Positions 1,359 to 10,556 of a DNA stretch of 34,096 bases are shown here, piece after piece. A model generated the notes under the pieces. The model searched no databases and was not told the DNA's origin. It saw only the letters and a program-made list of their open reading frames with translations. The stretch is taken from IMG/VR virus record IMGVR_UViG_3300005518_000030, positions 1 through 34,096 of that record. One strand, written 5' to 3'. The DNA comes from a virus. How positions within the stretch are numbered: position 1 is the first letter of the stretch; every line of letters starts with the position of its first letter. Made by a program: the position numbers and the translations under genes.

Positions 1359-3476
1359 CTACTCGGCGTCCTCGACGGTGGGCAGATCGGCGTAGCGCAG
1401 GCCCTTGGCGCCTCCGCAGCACTCCCTGATCGTGAGTTGCCGGGTGGACACCTTGAACGGCTTGAGGGCCGCGCTGAGCGCCGTGGACGACCCTGCGGCG
1501 TCCATGTCCAGCCACGGCTTGTACAGGTCCGGCCGCAGCCGGGCGAGGGCCTCGACAAGGCGGTGCGAGTGCACGGCCTCCACTCCGTCCGGCCATACGG
1601 CCCGCAGGTGGTCGACCACAGTCTCCACATCGAGGTCGACGACCTGTGCGCCGACGGACTGCCCGGTGAGCGTGCCGGCCGCGGTGCGCAGCGCCAGGGC
1701 GCGCTTGGCGATGTCCTCGGCTTCGGTCTGCTTGATGAACGCGGCGCGGACGGTGATGCCTTCGCGACCGCGGGCAAGGATGCCGGTGCCCTGCTCGTCG
1801 ATGCTGATGTCGGTGGCGCGCAGGCCGCGTTCGAAGGCGCTGGTGCCGAGCACGTTGTTGTTCGCCCTCCAGTCCATGACGGCCAGGCAGAGGCGTGTGC
1901 CGACCGAGCTGGACACCGACGTGGGCAGGGACGGGGCGTCGGGGTTCTGGGTGAGCAGGATGAGGATGATGCCGTAGGCGCGGGCCTTCTTGATCAGGCG
2001 GGTGGCCAGGGCCGCGGCCTCGTCCTTGTACTCGGCGTGGGTGAACAGCTCCTGCACCTCGTCGATGACGATGACGCGCGGGCCGAGGTTCTGCTCGGGG
2101 TACTTCTCGGCGAGCGCGCGGGTGACCTTGCGGCCCTCGGGCACCTCGGAGGCGGGCAGGGAGCGCACGAACGCGGCGCGGCGCTGGTACTCGGCGATCC
2201 CGGAGCGCATGCCGCCCAGGGCGGCCTCAAGGTCTTCGTCCTCGTCGCCGGACACGTAGCGGTGGCAGATCGGCTTGACGGAGTCGAGGTCGCCGGATCC
2301 CTTGAGCTCGTAGATCCAGAGTTCGGCGGTGGGGTCGAGGGCGACGCCGAGGACGATGGCGAGCGCGCAGGACGTCTTGCCGGAGCCGGGGATGCCTCCG
2401 ACCAGCAGGTTTGAGTACATGAGGGTGATCTCGACGAGGTTGCCGCGCGGGTCGAAGCCGTAGGGCAGGGGCTCGTACACGTCGGCCTGGCCCTCTTTCA
2501 TGAGGGGCCACAGCTTGCGGCCGGCCTTGGCGGGGTCGCGCTGCGCCACCCACAGGACGAGGCGGCCGGGGTGGGCGGAGCGGTCGCCCTCGGGCCACAC
2601 GGTGCTGATGGGGCGGCGCATGGCGGCGGCGAGCGCGGCCCGCTTCTCCAGTACGGCGGTGGCTTCGATGCCGGGCGGGAGGTCGACCTCGGCGCGCCAT
2701 CCGGGGCCGTCGCGCATGACCTCGGAGGCGAACTCGACGCCGCGGCGCCCCTTCTTGCCCTCGATGCCGATGGCGGCGAGTGCGTCGAACACCTCGGTGG
2801 AGTCGAGGCGGCGCAGCACGTTGGTGGCCACGTAGCGGGTGATGAGGGGCTTGTCGCCCTTCTTGCCGGCCACGCCGACCAGGGCGGTGGCCGTGAGGGC
2901 GGCGGTGAGCGTCCAGCCGGGCACGAGGAACGCGCTGACCAGCGTGGTGATGCCGACGGCGGTGGCCACGGCCAGGGAGGCGATGCGCCGTGGCCGGACG
3001 CGGCGGGAGTGCTCGCGGGAGAGGGCGAGCCACGCTTCGATGTCCGCGGACGCGGCGGCCTTGGCCTCAACGGGCCGGGCCTCGGTGTCGGCGACCCACT
3101 TGCCCCAGCGGACTAGGAGGCGGCCAGCGCCGCGGGGTGCCCGGAGCAGCAGGCGGGTGAGGTACACGGGCGCACGCACGGCGTGGAAGCCGGTGACGTG
3201 GACGTAGTAGGACGCCGTCCAGCGGGCGGCGTCCACGAACTCGGCGGCGTTGCGCAGGAACGTGGGGATGACGGGCGGGGCTTCGGCGAGGTAGGCCTGC
3301 TTCTCGGCGATCCATGTACCTGCGGCTGGGGCTTCGTTGGGCGGGTCGACGGGTCGGGGCTCGGCGTTCTCGACGACTTCGATGATGGTCTCGGTCAGGG
3401 TGTCCTGCGCGTCCTTGAGGAGCGTGGGTGCGTCCGGGGGTGCGTCCTTGTGGAGCTGGACGACGTTGTTCGTCAT
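1359..3476 (-). CDS. FtsK/SpoIIIE-type DNA translocase, TraB-like
   Basis: A 705-residue hexameric motor of the FtsK/HerA class. Walker A is GGIPGSGKTS at about 360-369, Walker B is RVIVIDEVQ at about 467-475, and LLTQNP follows near 507. Two hydrophobic segments at about 163-203 would anchor it in the membrane. The C-terminus (about 615-700, with SSTALSAALKPF and the wing up to LRYADLP) resembles the winged helix of Streptomyces TraB/TraSA, which binds clt repeats and moves double-stranded DNA between hyphae. The length and layout fit that family better than chromosomal FtsK. The upstream Spd-like genes and downstream repeats support a transfer role. A role in prophage segregation is the alternative. 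Ribosome site AGGAAG precedes the ATG. Confidence 0.88.
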   Translation of the reverse strand: MTNNVVQLHKDAPPDAPTLLKDAQDTLTETIIEVVENAEPRPVDPPNEAPAAGTWIAEKQAYLAEAPPVIPTFLRNAAEFVDAARWTASYYVHVTGFHAVRAPVYLTRLLLRAPRGAGRLLVRWGKWVADTEARPVEAKAAASADIEAWLALSREHSRRVRPRRIASLAVATAVGITTLVSAFLVPGWTLTAALTATALVGVAGKKGDKPLITRYVATNVLRRLDSTEVFDALAAIGIEGKKGRRGVEFASEVMRDGPGWRAEVDLPPGIEATAVLEKRAALAAAMRRPISTVWPEGDRSAHPGRLVLWVAQRDPAKAGRKLWPLMKEGQADVYEPLPYGFDPRGNLVEITLMYSNLLVGGIPGSGKTSCALAIVLGVALDPTAELWIYELKGSGDLDSVKPICHRYVSGDEDEDLEAALGGMRSGIAEYQRRAAFVRSLPASEVPEGRKVTRALAEKYPEQNLGPRVIVIDEVQELFTHAEYKDEAAALATRLIKKARAYGIILILLTQNPDAPSLPTSVSSSVGTRLCLAVMDWRANNNVLGTSAFERGLRATDISIDEQGTGILARGREGITVRAAFIKQTEAEDIAKRALALRTAAGTLTGQSVGAQVVDLDVETVVDHLRAVWPDGVEAVHSHRLVEALARLRPDLYKPWLDMDAAGSSTALSAALKPFKVSTRQLTIRECCGGAKGLRYADLPTVEDAE

Positions 3477-6615: not shown

Positions 6616-7131
6616 TCAGAAAGGGGGCTCTTCGGGGTGCCCGGCCGGGGCCGGAGCGGGCGGGGCGGTTCCCCAGCCGCCGCCCTGCTGCTGGCCGTTG
6701 GCGGGCTTGGCCCCGGCCCACGGGTCCTGCGTGGTGCTCGGCCCCACGGAGGTCTGGCCGCCACCCGCCGGGTTCTTCGTGACCTTGGCGGTGGCGCGGG
6801 CGAGGCTCGGGCCGACCTCGTCGACGTCGAGCTCGTACACCGTCCGCTTGACGCCCTCACGGTCCTCGTAGCTGCGCTGCTTGAGGCGGCCCTGAACGAT
6901 GACGCGCGTGCCGCGGCTGAGGGATTCGGCGACGTTCTCGGCGGCCTGCCGCCACACCGAGCAGGTGAGGAACAGTGAGTCGCCGTCCTTCCATTCGTTG
7001 GCGGTCTTGTCGTAGACGCGCGGAGTGGAGGCGATCCGGAACTTGGCGACGGCGGCCCCGGCCGGGGTGAAGCGGAGTTCGGGGTCGTCGACCAGGTTGC
7101 CGACGACGGTGATCACGGTCTCGCCTGACAT
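6616..7131 (-). CDS. ssb: single-stranded DNA-binding protein
   Basis: A 171-residue SSB. The OB fold spans about residues 5-110: [83 protein letters not shown] Gly/Pro/Gln-rich linker follows, and the protein ends EEPPF, the actinobacterial form of the C-terminal tip that recruits replication and repair partners. AAGGAG lies before the ATG at 7131. The length is typical of bacterial SSB. It should coat single-stranded phage DNA during Prim-Pol-dependent replication. A GC-rich hairpin (7164-7192) just upstream may tune its expression. Confidence 0.95.
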
Positions 7132-7163
7132 GGCGGACTCCTTCTGTGGTGTGCTGGGTGGGT

Positions 7164-7192
7164 GGCCGGGCCCGATTCCTGCGGGCCCGGCC
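7164..7192 (-). terminator. GC-rich hairpin upstream of ssb
   Basis: A perfect 11-bp stem GGCCGGGCCCG (7164-7174 with 7182-7192) has a 7-nt loop. It lies between the 97-residue gene and ssb in an otherwise overlapping gene chain, and could be an internal terminator or an RNA-processing structure. Confidence 0.5.
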
Positions 7193-7205
7193 GGTGTCGT
7201 GCGGG

Positions 7206-7499
7206 TCAGGCGCTGGCGAGGAACTCGGCGCGCTTGACGGGGTCTTGCATCTCGCGGGCGCTGGCCACCCATGCCGAGTGCATGTGGGTGGCGTCGTCCT
7301 TGTGTTCGGCGCACAGGGTGATCCGCAGGGTGCTGTTCTCGGCGGGCCGCTGCTGGTCGATGGTGTTGCGGACGGCGATGACGCCGGGCTTCCCGCAGCT
7401 GTCGTGCCCGTGGCTGCATGTACCGGTGCTGACGCCGATGGTCTGCACGGTGAACGTGGTGTCGCGGTCGTCGCCCAGGGCGACGGTGGTCGTGGTCAC
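7206..7499 (-). CDS. Cys/His-containing small protein, unknown
   Basis: A 97-residue protein with a beta-rich start ([10 protein letters not shown]), a cluster of possible metal ligands ([12 protein letters not shown], then [13 protein letters not shown]), and a helical end. Cysteine and histidine spacing suggests a small zinc fold. It starts with GTG at 7499, overlapping the previous stop. No family is recognised. Confidence 0.66.
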
Positions 7500-7792
7500 T
7501 GGTTCTCCTTGGTGGTGGCGCGGGTGATCTCGCGGGCGCGGATGTTCCAGACGCCGACCTCGTGGTCGTGCTCGCGCAGTTCGGCCGGCGTCCAGACCAT
7601 GTCGAGGTGCAGGAAGGCGGGCTGAATGCTGGTCGTGGCGGTGCCGTCAGTCAGGCGGGCGTCGACGACGGTGGCCCAGCCGATGACCGGGCAGACGAGG
7701 TCCTCGCCGGCCTCGCGTCCGTAGTCGAAGGCGATGACCCAGTCGTTGCCGGCCGGGGCCATGTTGAGGATGCTGCCGGTGGCGATGTTCAT
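7496..7792 (-). CDS. small beta-rich protein, unknown
   Basis: A 98-residue protein: [40 protein letters not shown], then [19 protein letters not shown]. It reads as a compact beta barrel-like domain without catalytic signatures. AAGGAG lies five bases before the ATG, and the ATG overlaps the upstream stop (ATGA). It belongs to the replication operon. No function can be assigned. Confidence 0.66.
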
Positions 7793-8181
7793 GAGTTCTC
7801 CTTGGTGGTTTCTTCCTGGGATTCCAGGAGGTCGGTGTTGACGGCGCCGCCGATGGACACCCACAGGCTGTGGGCTTGGGCGCTGGTGAAGTCGCGGCGG
7901 CGGGCCTGGTCTTGGAGCTCGGCGTAGGTGAGGCCGAGCCGGTCGAGTGAGCGGCGGGCCGCGGCGTGGAACTCGGCCTCGGTCACCTCGACCACGACGT
8001 CGTCGGCGTCGTCGGGCTCACTGGCCGACTGGGTGTCGGCCTGTCGGCGGAGTTTGGCCGCGTGCCGGATGGCGAGGCCGCGTTGGCGGGCGGCGGCGAG
8101 GGCTGCACGCCGCCGCTTGTTCGCCTCGGCGCGGGCGCGGGCGGCGGCGATCTTCTCGGCCACGACGTCGTCGACGTTCAC
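7789..8181 (-). CDS. basic helical protein, unknown
   Basis: A 130-residue protein. The N-terminal half is a long Arg/Ala-rich helix (AEKIAAARARAEANKRRRAA LAAARQRG), likely a coiled coil or nucleic-acid-binding segment. The second half is acidic then helical (DDADDVVVEVTEAEFHAAAR; LGLTYAELQDQARRR). The GTG start at 8181 has no ribosome site of its own. An 11-codon frame (8178-8213) with a strong GGAGG ends on it, so translation may be coupled. The gene lies directly downstream of the iteron array. Confidence 0.65.
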   Translation of the reverse strand: MNVDDVVAEKIAAARARAEANKRRRAALAAARQRGLAIRHAAKLRRQADTQSASEPDDADDVVVEVTEAEFHAAARRSLDRLGLTYAELQDQARRRDFTSAQAHSLWVSIGGAVNTDLLESQEETTKENS

Positions 8182-8213
8182 GGTGCGGGCCGGACGGTGT
8201 TAAGGACGGGCAT
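8178..8213 (-). CDS. putative 11-codon leader peptide
   Basis: A short frame encoding MPVLNTVRPAP. GGAGG lies six bases before its ATG, and its TGA overlaps the GTG of the next gene (GTGA at 8178-8181). The next gene lacks a ribosome site, so this frame may exist to load ribosomes onto it. The small size makes chance possible. Confidence 0.35.
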   Translation of the reverse strand: MPVLNTVRPAP

Positions 8214-8240
8214 GGGGCGCCTCCTGTGGCGGCTGTGGCG

Positions 8241-8457
8241 ACCTCGTCCCGGCGGCTCGCGCTTCCGAGGCCCTTGTCTGTGACCTCGTCCTCGTCCCAC
8301 CTAAAGAAGTGGGACGAGGGACGAGGTGTCACGACCTCGTCCGGGACGAGGTGGGACGAGGTGGGACGAGGTCATTTACGAGGGATAGCGATCATGGTCG
8401 GTAGCCAAAGGCGGACAGAGTGGGTCAATCGACCTCGTCCGGGGGTCGGGACGAGGT
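8241..8457. repeat. GGGACGAGGT iteron array, origin candidate
   Basis: Eleven copies, exact or one base short, of the 10-bp unit GGGACGAGGT in both orientations. Forward copies lie at 8311, 8318, 8343, 8353, 8363 and 8448, with 8343-8372 being three exact tandem units. Reverse copies (ACCTCGTCCC) lie at 8241, 8283, 8290, 8334 and 8432. Inverted pairs form hairpins: an 11-bp stem at 8290-8319 with an A-rich 8-nt loop, and ACCTCGTCCGGGACGAGGT at 8334-8352. A locally less GC-rich patch follows at 8373-8411. The array fills the 243-bp gap next to the helicase-like gene and enters its 3' end. It looks like a replication origin; an operator cluster is the alternative. Confidence 0.68.
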
Positions 8458-9633
8458 CAACCGGCCTCCTTCCTCGACCGGATTGCCCGCTTCTGTACCT
8501 GCGGACGGGATGCTGTGGAGGACGGCGCCGCGCGCGCCTCGCTCGGTGCCGATCCGGCCCTCATCAACGAGGGCGGCAACGGCCTGCCGGATGTCCGCCG
8601 CACGGCCGCTCACGCGGTCCTCGATGCCCTTGCCCGTCAGCGGCTCCCGGGCGCCCGTCAGGGCATCGAGCACCTTCCGCTTGAGGGCGTTGATGCGCCG
8701 CTGCTCCTCGTCGGCCTCGCGGTCCTCCTCGTCGCGCTGGATGGGCGCGTACAGGTGAGCCTCGGCGAACTCGGCGGACTCGGACTTGACGACGAGGTCG
8801 GCGTACCAGTGCATGCCGCTGGAGTGCGACAGTCCGTTCTTACGGATCTGGCCGGGCCGGTCCTTGGCGACGCGGATGGTGGACTTGCCGGTGACACCGA
8901 TGCCGAAGGGGCGCCGGTTCTCCAGCATGTACATCACGCCATTGAGGCCGTTGAGCTTGTGGACGCCGCCGATGCTGTACCGGCCGCGGTTCTCCGCCGA
9001 CTTGACGACGTGGTCGAGGGTGACGACCGCAGCCCCGGAGTTCATGAGCGGGCGAAGCAGCCGGCGGCCGAACTTGGCGACGTCGGTGTTGTCCTTCAGC
9101 TCCAGTCCGAAGAGGCTCATGCCCTCGGTCACGCCGTCGACGATGGCGAGGGTCGGGCTGTGCTCCAGCACCATCGCAAGGTCGATGAGGTCGATGTCGC
9201 TGGGGCTGTTCTCGGGCCGGACGTAGTGGAAGCGCTCCAGCACGTCGTCGGGGCGCGCGCCGAGGCAGAGCAGCCGGCCGACCACGCCGCCCGCATCGTC
9301 CTCGAAGTCGAGGTACAGGACGTGGTTGCCGTCGTTGATCTCCTGCAGGCAGGCGATGAGCGCGAACCACGTCTTGCCCGCCTCGGACTCGCTGGCGACG
9401 CTGTTCATCCGGCCCGGATAGAACAGGCCGACACCGTCGTCCCGGCGCCCCACCGAGGGCTGCGGCGGCCGGTACGAGCCGTCGAGGACCGACCGCAGGT
9501 CTTGGGCCGCCCACGTGCGCGGCGCAGGCTCCTTCTCGGCGGCTGCGCCATCCACGTCTTGCCAGTCGACGGGCGGCTCCTCGCCGTCCGGGCCGAAGTA
9601 GGCGTCCATGGCCTGGTCGAAGTCGGTCGTCAC
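8425..9633 (-). CDS. RecA-fold replicative ATPase, RepA/helicase-like
   Basis: A 402-residue RecA-fold ATPase of the AAA_25/RepA type. The P-loop SESEAGKT is at about 81-88, LYLDFEDD near 106-113, and a Walker B-like LAIVDG near 162-167, followed by VVTLDHVVKS and SIGGVHKLNG, which resemble the later motifs of hexameric RepA helicases. A C-terminal winged helix (about 320-380: LKRKVLDALTGAREPLTGKG, IRQAVAALVDEGRIG) may bind DNA. It starts with GTG at 9633, overlapping the primase stop (GTGA). Its last codons lie inside the iteron array, as in replicons whose initiator gene abuts the origin. It probably acts as helicase loader or helicase with the Prim-Pol. Confidence 0.82.
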   Translation of the reverse strand: MTTDFDQAMDAYFGPDGEEPPVDWQDVDGAAAEKEPAPRTWAAQDLRSVLDGSYRPPQPSVGRRDDGVGLFYPGRMNSVASESEAGKTWFALIACLQEINDGNHVLYLDFEDDAGGVVGRLLCLGARPDDVLERFHYVRPENSPSDIDLIDLAMVLEHSPTLAIVDGVTEGMSLFGLELKDNTDVAKFGRRLLRPLMNSGAAVVTLDHVVKSAENRGRYSIGGVHKLNGLNGVMYMLENRRPFGIGVTGKSTIRVAKDRPGQIRKNGLSHSSGMHWYADLVVKSESAEFAEAHLYAPIQRDEEDREADEEQRRINALKRKVLDALTGAREPLTGKGIEDRVSGRAADIRQAVAALVDEGRIGTERGARGAVLHSIPSAGTEAGNPVEEGGRLTSSRPPDEVD

Positions 9634-10556
9634 GCCACCCACCTCCGGTCGCTGGGACGCGTGGCGGCACTGTCGAACGACGCCCGCGCCTCGGAGTCGG
9701 TGAGGCCTACGGCGGACGCTGCGGACAGCAGACCCATCTCGGCCTCGGCGAGGTCGATGAGGTTCTGCTCGGCCAGCTCGTGCGCACGGCAGGCCGCGAA
9801 GAAGAAGGCGTTGTTGCGGTGGCCCTCGTGTGCGTCCATCACGTGCTGGACCAGGTCAGCCACCGTCCACAGACGGCCGCCGCCGGGCCGCTGCTGGCGC
9901 CGCTCCTGGGTGGGAAAGCGGTGCCGCGGTGTGGCGCGCGGCGGCGGGAGCTGGCGACGCCGCTTACGCGGCAGAAGCGCCTCGGGCCAGTCGACGGTCG
10001 GCGCGATGTACGAACCGTCGCCTACCCACTGGTAGCGGCCGCCGGAGGAGTGCACGGACGGGGCGAGCAGGATGTAGCCGTTGTGCTTGAAGTCGATGCC
10101 GGGCCCGCCCAGGCCGGGCAGGTCGAAGTCGGGGGAGCGGTACAGCTGGTGCAGCCCGCCGCCGCCGGTGAGTTGCATGGTGGTGCCGGGCAGCACGCCG
10201 ACGCGCTCCTCGAGGGCGCGGTACGACTCGTTGCCGCCGTTGCGCGGGTCGATGTCGACGACGGCCCAGCCGTTCAGCTTGCACGGGGCGCCGATGTTCG
10301 CGTCGGGTTCCTCGCGCCACCACTTGCGGACGAGGTCGAGGTCGGTGGTGGCTGCCCAGAAGCCGTGACAGGTGGGGACGCCGCACTGGCAGTTCTCGGG
10401 CCGGTGCTTGACGTAGAGGCTGCTCTGCCGGTCGCAGCGCGGGCAGTTGGCGTAGGGGGTCTTGTTCCGCCGGACGCGGAAGACCTTGATGCCCGCCTCG
10501 GCATAGGCCTCGGCGGCGGCCGGGAGCTTGGCGGGGATACGGAGGCCGACGGTCAC
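9630..10556 (-). CDS. bifunctional DNA primase/polymerase (Prim-Pol)
   Basis: A 308-residue archaeo-eukaryotic-type Prim-Pol. The N-terminal domain has the metal-binding DID at about 101-103 (WAVVDIDPRNGG), GGGLHQLY at about 133-140, and DFKHNGYILLAPS near 155. Cysteines at about 38, 41, 56, 58 and 63 with His64 (CPRC, CQCGVPTCH) look like an inserted zinc knot. After about residue 215 a short helical region follows (DLVQHVMDAHEGHRNNAFFF AACRA), like the alpha-helical C-terminal domains of plasmid primases. Prim-Pols are found in corynephages, actinophages and some AICEs, where they initiate or prime replication. GTG start at 10556; the ribosome site is weak. Confidence 0.92.
   Translation of the reverse strand: MTVGLRIPAKLPAAAEAYAEAGIKVFRVRRNKTPYANCPRCDRQSSLYVKHRPENCQCGVPTCHGFWAATTDLDLVRKWWREEPDANIGAPCKLNGWAVVDIDPRNGGNESYRALEERVGVLPGTTMQLTGGGGLHQLYRSPDFDLPGLGGPGIDFKHNGYILLAPSVHSSGGRYQWVGDGSYIAPTVDWPEALLPRKRRRQLPPPRATPRHRFPTQERRQQRPGGGRLWTVADLVQHVMDAHEGHRNNAFFFAACRAHELAEQNLIDLAEAEMGLLSAASAVGLTDSEARASFDSAATRPSDRRWVA

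Follow-up and report, generated by a model that had tools for sequence, protein, structure and literature searches.

What a dense array of short repeats does inside the replication operon of a virus, and which protein reads it, is the question raised by the window analyzed here, the whole 34,096-bp stretch of one virus record (IMGVR_UViG_3300005518_000030). As the record carries terminase, portal, capsid, tail, and serine integrase genes, the window is taken to derive from a temperate actinophage or a prophage of Streptomyces type. We propose that the array is very likely a replication origin, with a RecA-fold helicase/initiator whose C-terminal winged helix would bind the iterons and a dyad with a TA apex; DNA copying very probably starts there.

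A repeat array at the 3' end of an ATPase gene

On the minus strand, the gene order is Prim-Pol, RepA-like ATPase, the array, small genes, and SSB. The features considered are the following:

9630-10556, minus strand: Prim-Pol (AEP primase-polymerase; PF09250, E 6e-30)
8425-9642, minus strand: RecA/KaiC-fold ATPase of 405 aa, the RepA-like candidate helicase/initiator (PHROG 695, polymerase/primase, E 1e-18)
8500-8736, minus strand: codons of the C-terminal winged helix of the ATPase (residues 303-381 with its margins, the domain itself spanning about 305-377, from a structure model)
8432-8441 (minus) and 8448-8457 (plus): extra inverted iteron pair, inside the 3' end of the ATPase open reading frame
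8343-8372, plus strand: three tandem GGGACGAGGT iterons repeating every 10 bp (in close relatives, every 10 or 11 bp)
8334-8343, minus strand: iteron abutting the tandem triple in opposite orientation, one mismatch
8283-8327: near-perfect dyad around a TA core, formed by a pair of overlapping iterons on the minus strand (8283-8298) and a second such pair on the plus strand (8311-8327), which face each other
8302-8307: dyad apex with TA, reading CTTTAGG on the minus strand
8241-8250, minus strand: distal iteron, exact
6616-7419, minus strand: single-strand DNA-binding protein (SSB) of the same operon (PF00436, E 4e-30)
1359-3476, minus strand: FtsK/SpoIIIE/TraB-like translocase gene

Eleven copies of GGGACGAGGT lie within 8241-8457, six of them exact (8241 on the minus strand; 8318, 8343, 8353, 8363, and 8448 on the plus strand) and five with one mismatch (8283, 8289, 8334, and 8432 on the minus strand; 8311 on the plus strand). 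With up to one mismatch allowed, the whole 34,096-bp window holds 20 copies against 4.7 expected, and the highest of 100 shuffles had 10. A single 250-bp stretch contains 11 copies of the 8-mer CCTCGTCC, and the rest of the 34 kb only seven. The region 8241-8457 is the sole dense cluster of GGGACGAGGT, and a scan of the 34,096 bp found no comparable repeat cluster elsewhere. An earlier note, made from the letters of this stretch, had described an array of eleven units here, with an exact 10-bp tandem triple and inverted pairs, reaching into the 3' end of the ATPase gene. These statements were borne out: the triple and the pairs are present as described, and the pair at 8432-8457 falls inside the ATPase open reading frame while the other copies occupy the gap at 8182-8424.

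The facing iteron pairs of the dyad are separated by CTAAAG, and a hairpin can be drawn within it at 8291-8318. Both in an alignment of 19 loci and in a cross-family alignment, the dyad is the best-conserved portion of the array; the inverted pair at 8432-8457 is restricted to part of the Streptomyces clade. The repeats of the window are G+C-rich, and besides the TA core no obvious A+T-rich unwinding element was seen in the array, which counts against an origin. We propose that the tandem triple is a same-face binding array and that the TA apex is the opening point.

The FtsK/SpoIIIE/TraB-like gene coexists with terminase, portal, and capsid genes in this record, possibly a trait in common with conjugative AICEs.

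The layout is conserved while the repeat word changes between lineages

Relatives with ATPases 77-93% identical to that of the window, several of them named Streptomyces, carry the array at the same place, 3' of the ATPase gene wherever this could be read, and its layout hardly varies: a tandem triple with a 10- or 11-bp period is followed by one unit in reverse orientation and then by GTGANACCTCGTCCCTCGTCCCAC-TTCTTTA-GGTGGGACGAGGACGAGGTCAC. Past the array, the sequence diverges among these close relatives. A search with the dyad pattern in 2.9 million viral contigs gave 15 matches, all already known via their ATPase, and no dyad lacking the ATPase was found in that set.

For a wider view, 64 usable loci were collected from viral contigs, one genome per bacterial and archaeal species, phages, and plasmids, with hosts including Streptomyces, Micromonospora, Nocardioides, Mycobacterium, Kribbella, Pseudonocardia, and others. 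For each locus, 8-mers were counted de novo between positions -60 and +340 relative to the stop codon of the ATPase gene and compared with 100 shuffles. In 55 of the 64 loci, which are phages, prophages, and plasmids of Actinomycetota, the repeated word exceeds all shuffles; at the window locus, CCTCGTCC reaches 11 copies against a shuffle maximum of 3. The word itself is lineage-specific (CCTCGTCC, CGTTCCCC, CGTGTCCC, CCTCGCCC, CGTGCCCC, ACCCTGCC, and others; CGTTCCCC in L075, CTCGCCCC in L080). Across lineages the layout is constant: the tandem copies have a spacing of about 10-11 bp, two copies stand 7-8 bp from each other, and copies in opposite orientation face each other across an apex that contains TA. 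The dyad stems are usually built from each locus's own word, and TA is present in the dyad apex of 38 out of 45 loci versus 12.9% of background windows. Four loci (Dagobah, L094, L086, and pKRAD02) have all or most of their iterons within the coding sequence, at the 3' end of the ATPase gene.

The count failed in nine loci. The arrays of L086 and L094 lie deeper inside the gene, L067 has a shorter word that was read by eye, L054 is apparently interrupted, L096 and L098 have short open reading frames, L088 and L089 are borderline, and L097 has no array. L088 and L089 come from Janibacter terrae, where they are about 44 kb apart on one contig with equal ATPase match scores, open reading frame end, and repeat word, and are perhaps tandem prophages.

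The plan may not be confined to Actinomycetota. In Verrucomicrobia phage P8625, a fused primase-helicase gene is followed immediately downstream by seven copies of TATCGGCA (L040, 3979-4090), which suggests that the plan reaches further; among other fused primase-helicases, a downstream array is weak in Rasputia, and none was found in Dulem virus 38 or KimJongPhill. As for MinS1 (MZ923504.1; L036 and L100), deposited as a 'Microcystis phage', it carries an Lsr2 gene together with an ATPase/iteron module otherwise seen in Actinomycetota, and its stated host looks doubtful. An annotated gene of this phage (L100, 297-491) spans the iteron array and is probably not real.

The repeat word varies with the predicted winged helix of the ATPase

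The ATPase core matches RecA/RAD51/KaiC by sequence and by structure (Z about 20 to KaiC), and its match to AAA_25 falls just below the cut-off. The structure model has a pLDDT of 87 overall and above 90 in the winged helix. Modeled in isolation, the C-terminal domain also folds as a winged helix, and its nearest solved folds are winged helices (Z 9-11). Both the RecA fold and the winged helix are predictions from the structure model, the winged helix being a confident one. In the model, helix 337-343 contains G337 and E341; A348 and R352 lie at the beginning of the predicted recognition helix (348-360). Two ATPases of the family (L036, 5416-7107; L047, 13-1656) combine a DnaB-type N-terminal domain (PF00772) with the RecA core and the winged helix, and form a bridge between DnaB-like helicases and the RepA-like initiator.

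A comparison of the repeat in relatives with the winged helix had been suggested as a check, and the two agree. In partial Mantel tests, the repeat word is correlated with ATPase helices 336-358 when the core is controlled for (r=0.465, p=0.0005), but shows no correlation with the core when the helices are controlled for (r=0.002, p=0.47). These tests are register-free and remove common ancestry only in part. Of 240 ATPase columns, the four most associated with the word (E341, A348, G337, and A357) are all in the winged helix, in a test for which the register of the word was set by hand after viewing the data. Within CCTCGTCCC, CG at positions 4-5 pairs with E341 in 46 of 51 loci and with R352 likewise in 46 of 51, and T at position 6 pairs with A/S348 in 45 of 51. 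A tree restricted to the core columns of the ATPase requires a minimum of 19 changes of the word. The independent pairs lean in the expected direction (3.9 to 0.2, 3.0 to 0, and 4.1 to 0), being too few for a significant sign test. Two cases illustrate the pattern: the ATPase core of MinS1 is only 39% identical to that of the window, yet word and helix signature are common to both, whereas L018, with a core 61% identical, differs in both word and helix.

From these sequence comparisons, the repeat appears to be matched to the DNA-binding domain of the ATPase, and array and winged helix look like one swappable lock-and-key replication module.

A proposed origin read by the ATPase and the alternatives to it

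Sequence analysis establishes that the array exists, that its layout is conserved, that it is linked to the ATPase gene, and that word and winged helix co-vary. From there, we infer that the ATPase binds the array, melts it, and is loaded as a helicase, that priming follows, and that the site is an origin, the last because of the replication-gene context, a small plasmid and a small contig, and experimentally studied systems with the same plan. The 7.9-kb Streptomyces plasmid p-XQ-29-C has the ATPase with its own array and no other recognizable initiator or Rep; it is annotated as linear, and some of its proteins lack family matches, leaving room for another initiator. The contig, L061, comprises 7,210 bp of Actinomadura rubrisoli with the ATPase, an array, and a DUF5753/HTH regulator. 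Its reported coverage is 2944, and a circularity check found no overlap of its ends; it may be a multicopy plasmid.

In the mechanism that we propose, with the ATPase as an origin-binding helicase, RepA-like ATPase monomers would bind the GGGACGAGGT iterons via the C-terminal winged helix. Two sets of protomers would be gathered on the two sides of the TA-core dyad, through the helical phasing of the tandem triple and through the facing pairs that flank the dyad. Hexamers driven by ATP would then melt the TA apex and become loaded as helicases, and the exposed strands would be primed by Prim-Pol, or by a host primase where Prim-Pol is absent, with the phage SSB taking part.

The best-placed competitor is a transcription operator, where the ATPase or a phage repressor on the repeats would control the genes downstream and no origin would be present. 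The array does lie in an operon gap upstream of 7789-8181, with the operon genes running away from it, and winged helices are common in repressors. However, it accompanies the ATPase gene and no particular downstream gene, since what follows it diverges even among close relatives, and four loci have their iterons wholly or mostly inside the coding 3' end. No sigma-70 promoters or terminators were detected at the array, nor any promoter-like site (Streptomyces promoters vary), and this sole dense cluster does not adjoin the HTH/integrase control region at 12.4-14.8 kb. An operator would also leave the linkage to the ATPase and the co-variation with its winged helix unexplained, and we regard it as unlikely.

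Less probable still is a conjugal transfer site read by the FtsK/TraB-like protein of 1359-3476. TraB proteins bind the clt locus (PMC3218068), and an FtsK/SpoIIIE-type gene is present in the window and in p-XQ-29-C. Yet FtsK occurs in only 7 of the 21 related records and in neither of the complete phages Dagobah and MinS1, so the repeats do not accompany it, and the word tracks the winged helix of the ATPase instead. On this presence/absence pattern, the clt reading was rejected.

The earlier note had assigned the presumed origin to the adjacent RepA-like protein or to the Prim-Pol, and its two halves fared differently. The RepA-like half is strongly supported by conservation, co-variation with the winged helix, constant linkage, and occurrence on a small plasmid. 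A Prim-Pol-bound origin draws on the fact that Prim-Pol adjoins the ATPase in most Streptomyces relatives, but no Pfam Prim-Pol was found in the array-bearing MinS1, L043-L047, and p-XQ-29-C, and in Dagobah its gene is about 15 kb from the ATPase and the array; as the word moreover co-varies with the winged helix, Prim-Pol was rejected as the reader of the repeats, and such an origin is highly improbable. Being often absent or distant, neither Prim-Pol nor FtsK is a constant partner, and no separate, RepC-like gene was found to accompany the array constantly. The Prim-Pol of the window is probably the primer synthase of the module rather than the constant partner of the repeats.

Just as improbable is that the array works at the RNA level, as a structured RNA or a terminator in the operon transcript. 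Folding of the minus-strand RNA is indeed more stable than that of shuffles (z -7.3), but inverted copies of one word account for this, an Rfam search of the array gave no match, and no U-tract terminator was found. Such an element would explain neither the copies in direct tandem nor why the word co-varies with the DNA-binding domain of a protein.

As to the origin read by the ATPase, one expectation of the earlier note, an inflection of the GC skew near 8.3 kb, did not hold, the detrended maximum being near 12.2 kb; this test has little power in the window because most genes run one way. In Dagobah, the skew minimum is 1.8 kb from the array and uninformative, as it lies near a switch of gene strand.

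Comparison with known replication systems

The closest plan is that of SaPI Rep and SCCmec Cch2, helicases with a C-terminal DNA-binding domain and short iterons 3' of their own gene (PMC7581432). The window shares with them the C-terminal domain (here predicted), short iterons directly 3', and a primase-type partner. It differs in the core, which is AAA+/D5 or MCM-like there and of RecA/KaiC fold here, so that homology to SaPI Rep or Cch2 was not found; in the conserved TA-core dyad of the family; and in its hosts, mainly Actinomycetota. The plasmid pRN1 has Prim-Pol, helicase, and C-terminal winged helix in ORF904 and an essential stem-loop directly 3' of orf904 (PMC4234260), comparable with the hairpin-forming array 3' of the ATPase gene. 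In pRN1, there are no iterons, the helicase is of SF3 type, and the functions are fused in one protein, whereas in the window Prim-Pol and winged helix are encoded by separate genes and the core has a RecA fold. In the alpha protein of phage P4, a winged helix binds short origin repeats, followed by unwinding and priming (PMC4234260), the same sequence of steps as presumed here, although the primase of P4 is TOPRIM-type and in the same protein.

With RSF1010 (RepA/RepB'/RepC and oriV), the window has in common a separate helicase and primase, iterons, and hairpins near the origin (PMC4234260). There, however, the iterons are read by a separate RepC, a task that in the window seems to fall to the helicase. 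RSF1010 RepA and the ATPase share the RecA fold, RepA not being among the structural matches listed. In PLE, the DNA-binding domain of the initiator RepA and the iterons likewise co-vary and are exchanged as a module, but that initiator is a RepA_N-type non-helicase with three iterons of about 30 bp (PMC8263062). Finally, the replication region of the AICE SLP1 is Prim-Pol/SCO4618, the latter also named RepPP (PMC3218068), and this region may be related to the module of the window.

Implications

The plan of an initiator helicase with iterons 3' of its gene is already known, and what differs from the known examples is the RecA/KaiC-fold core, along with the iterons seemingly being read by the helicase itself rather than by a RepC-like protein. 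As the same plan is built on an unrelated helicase core, convergence is suggested. No earlier description of the array was found in the open-access literature. We think it more likely than not that these loci represent a large undescribed replicon family, with a replicative helicase of RecA fold that itself binds the origin as initiator, a readable code between the winged-helix residues E341, A/S348, and R352 and bases of the iterons, and a TA-core dyad at which two opposed hexamers are loaded. The family would span phages, prophages, and plasmids of Actinomycetota, and perhaps also phages of Verrucomicrobiota. Predicted origin coordinates, together with a predicted initiator, become available for many different phages, prophages, and small plasmids of actinobacteria; no earlier ones were found for them. 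With at least 19 natural changes of specificity and named residues, the evolution of replicon specificity and incompatibility would become directly testable, and the module may be a source of replicons for Streptomyces and related hosts.
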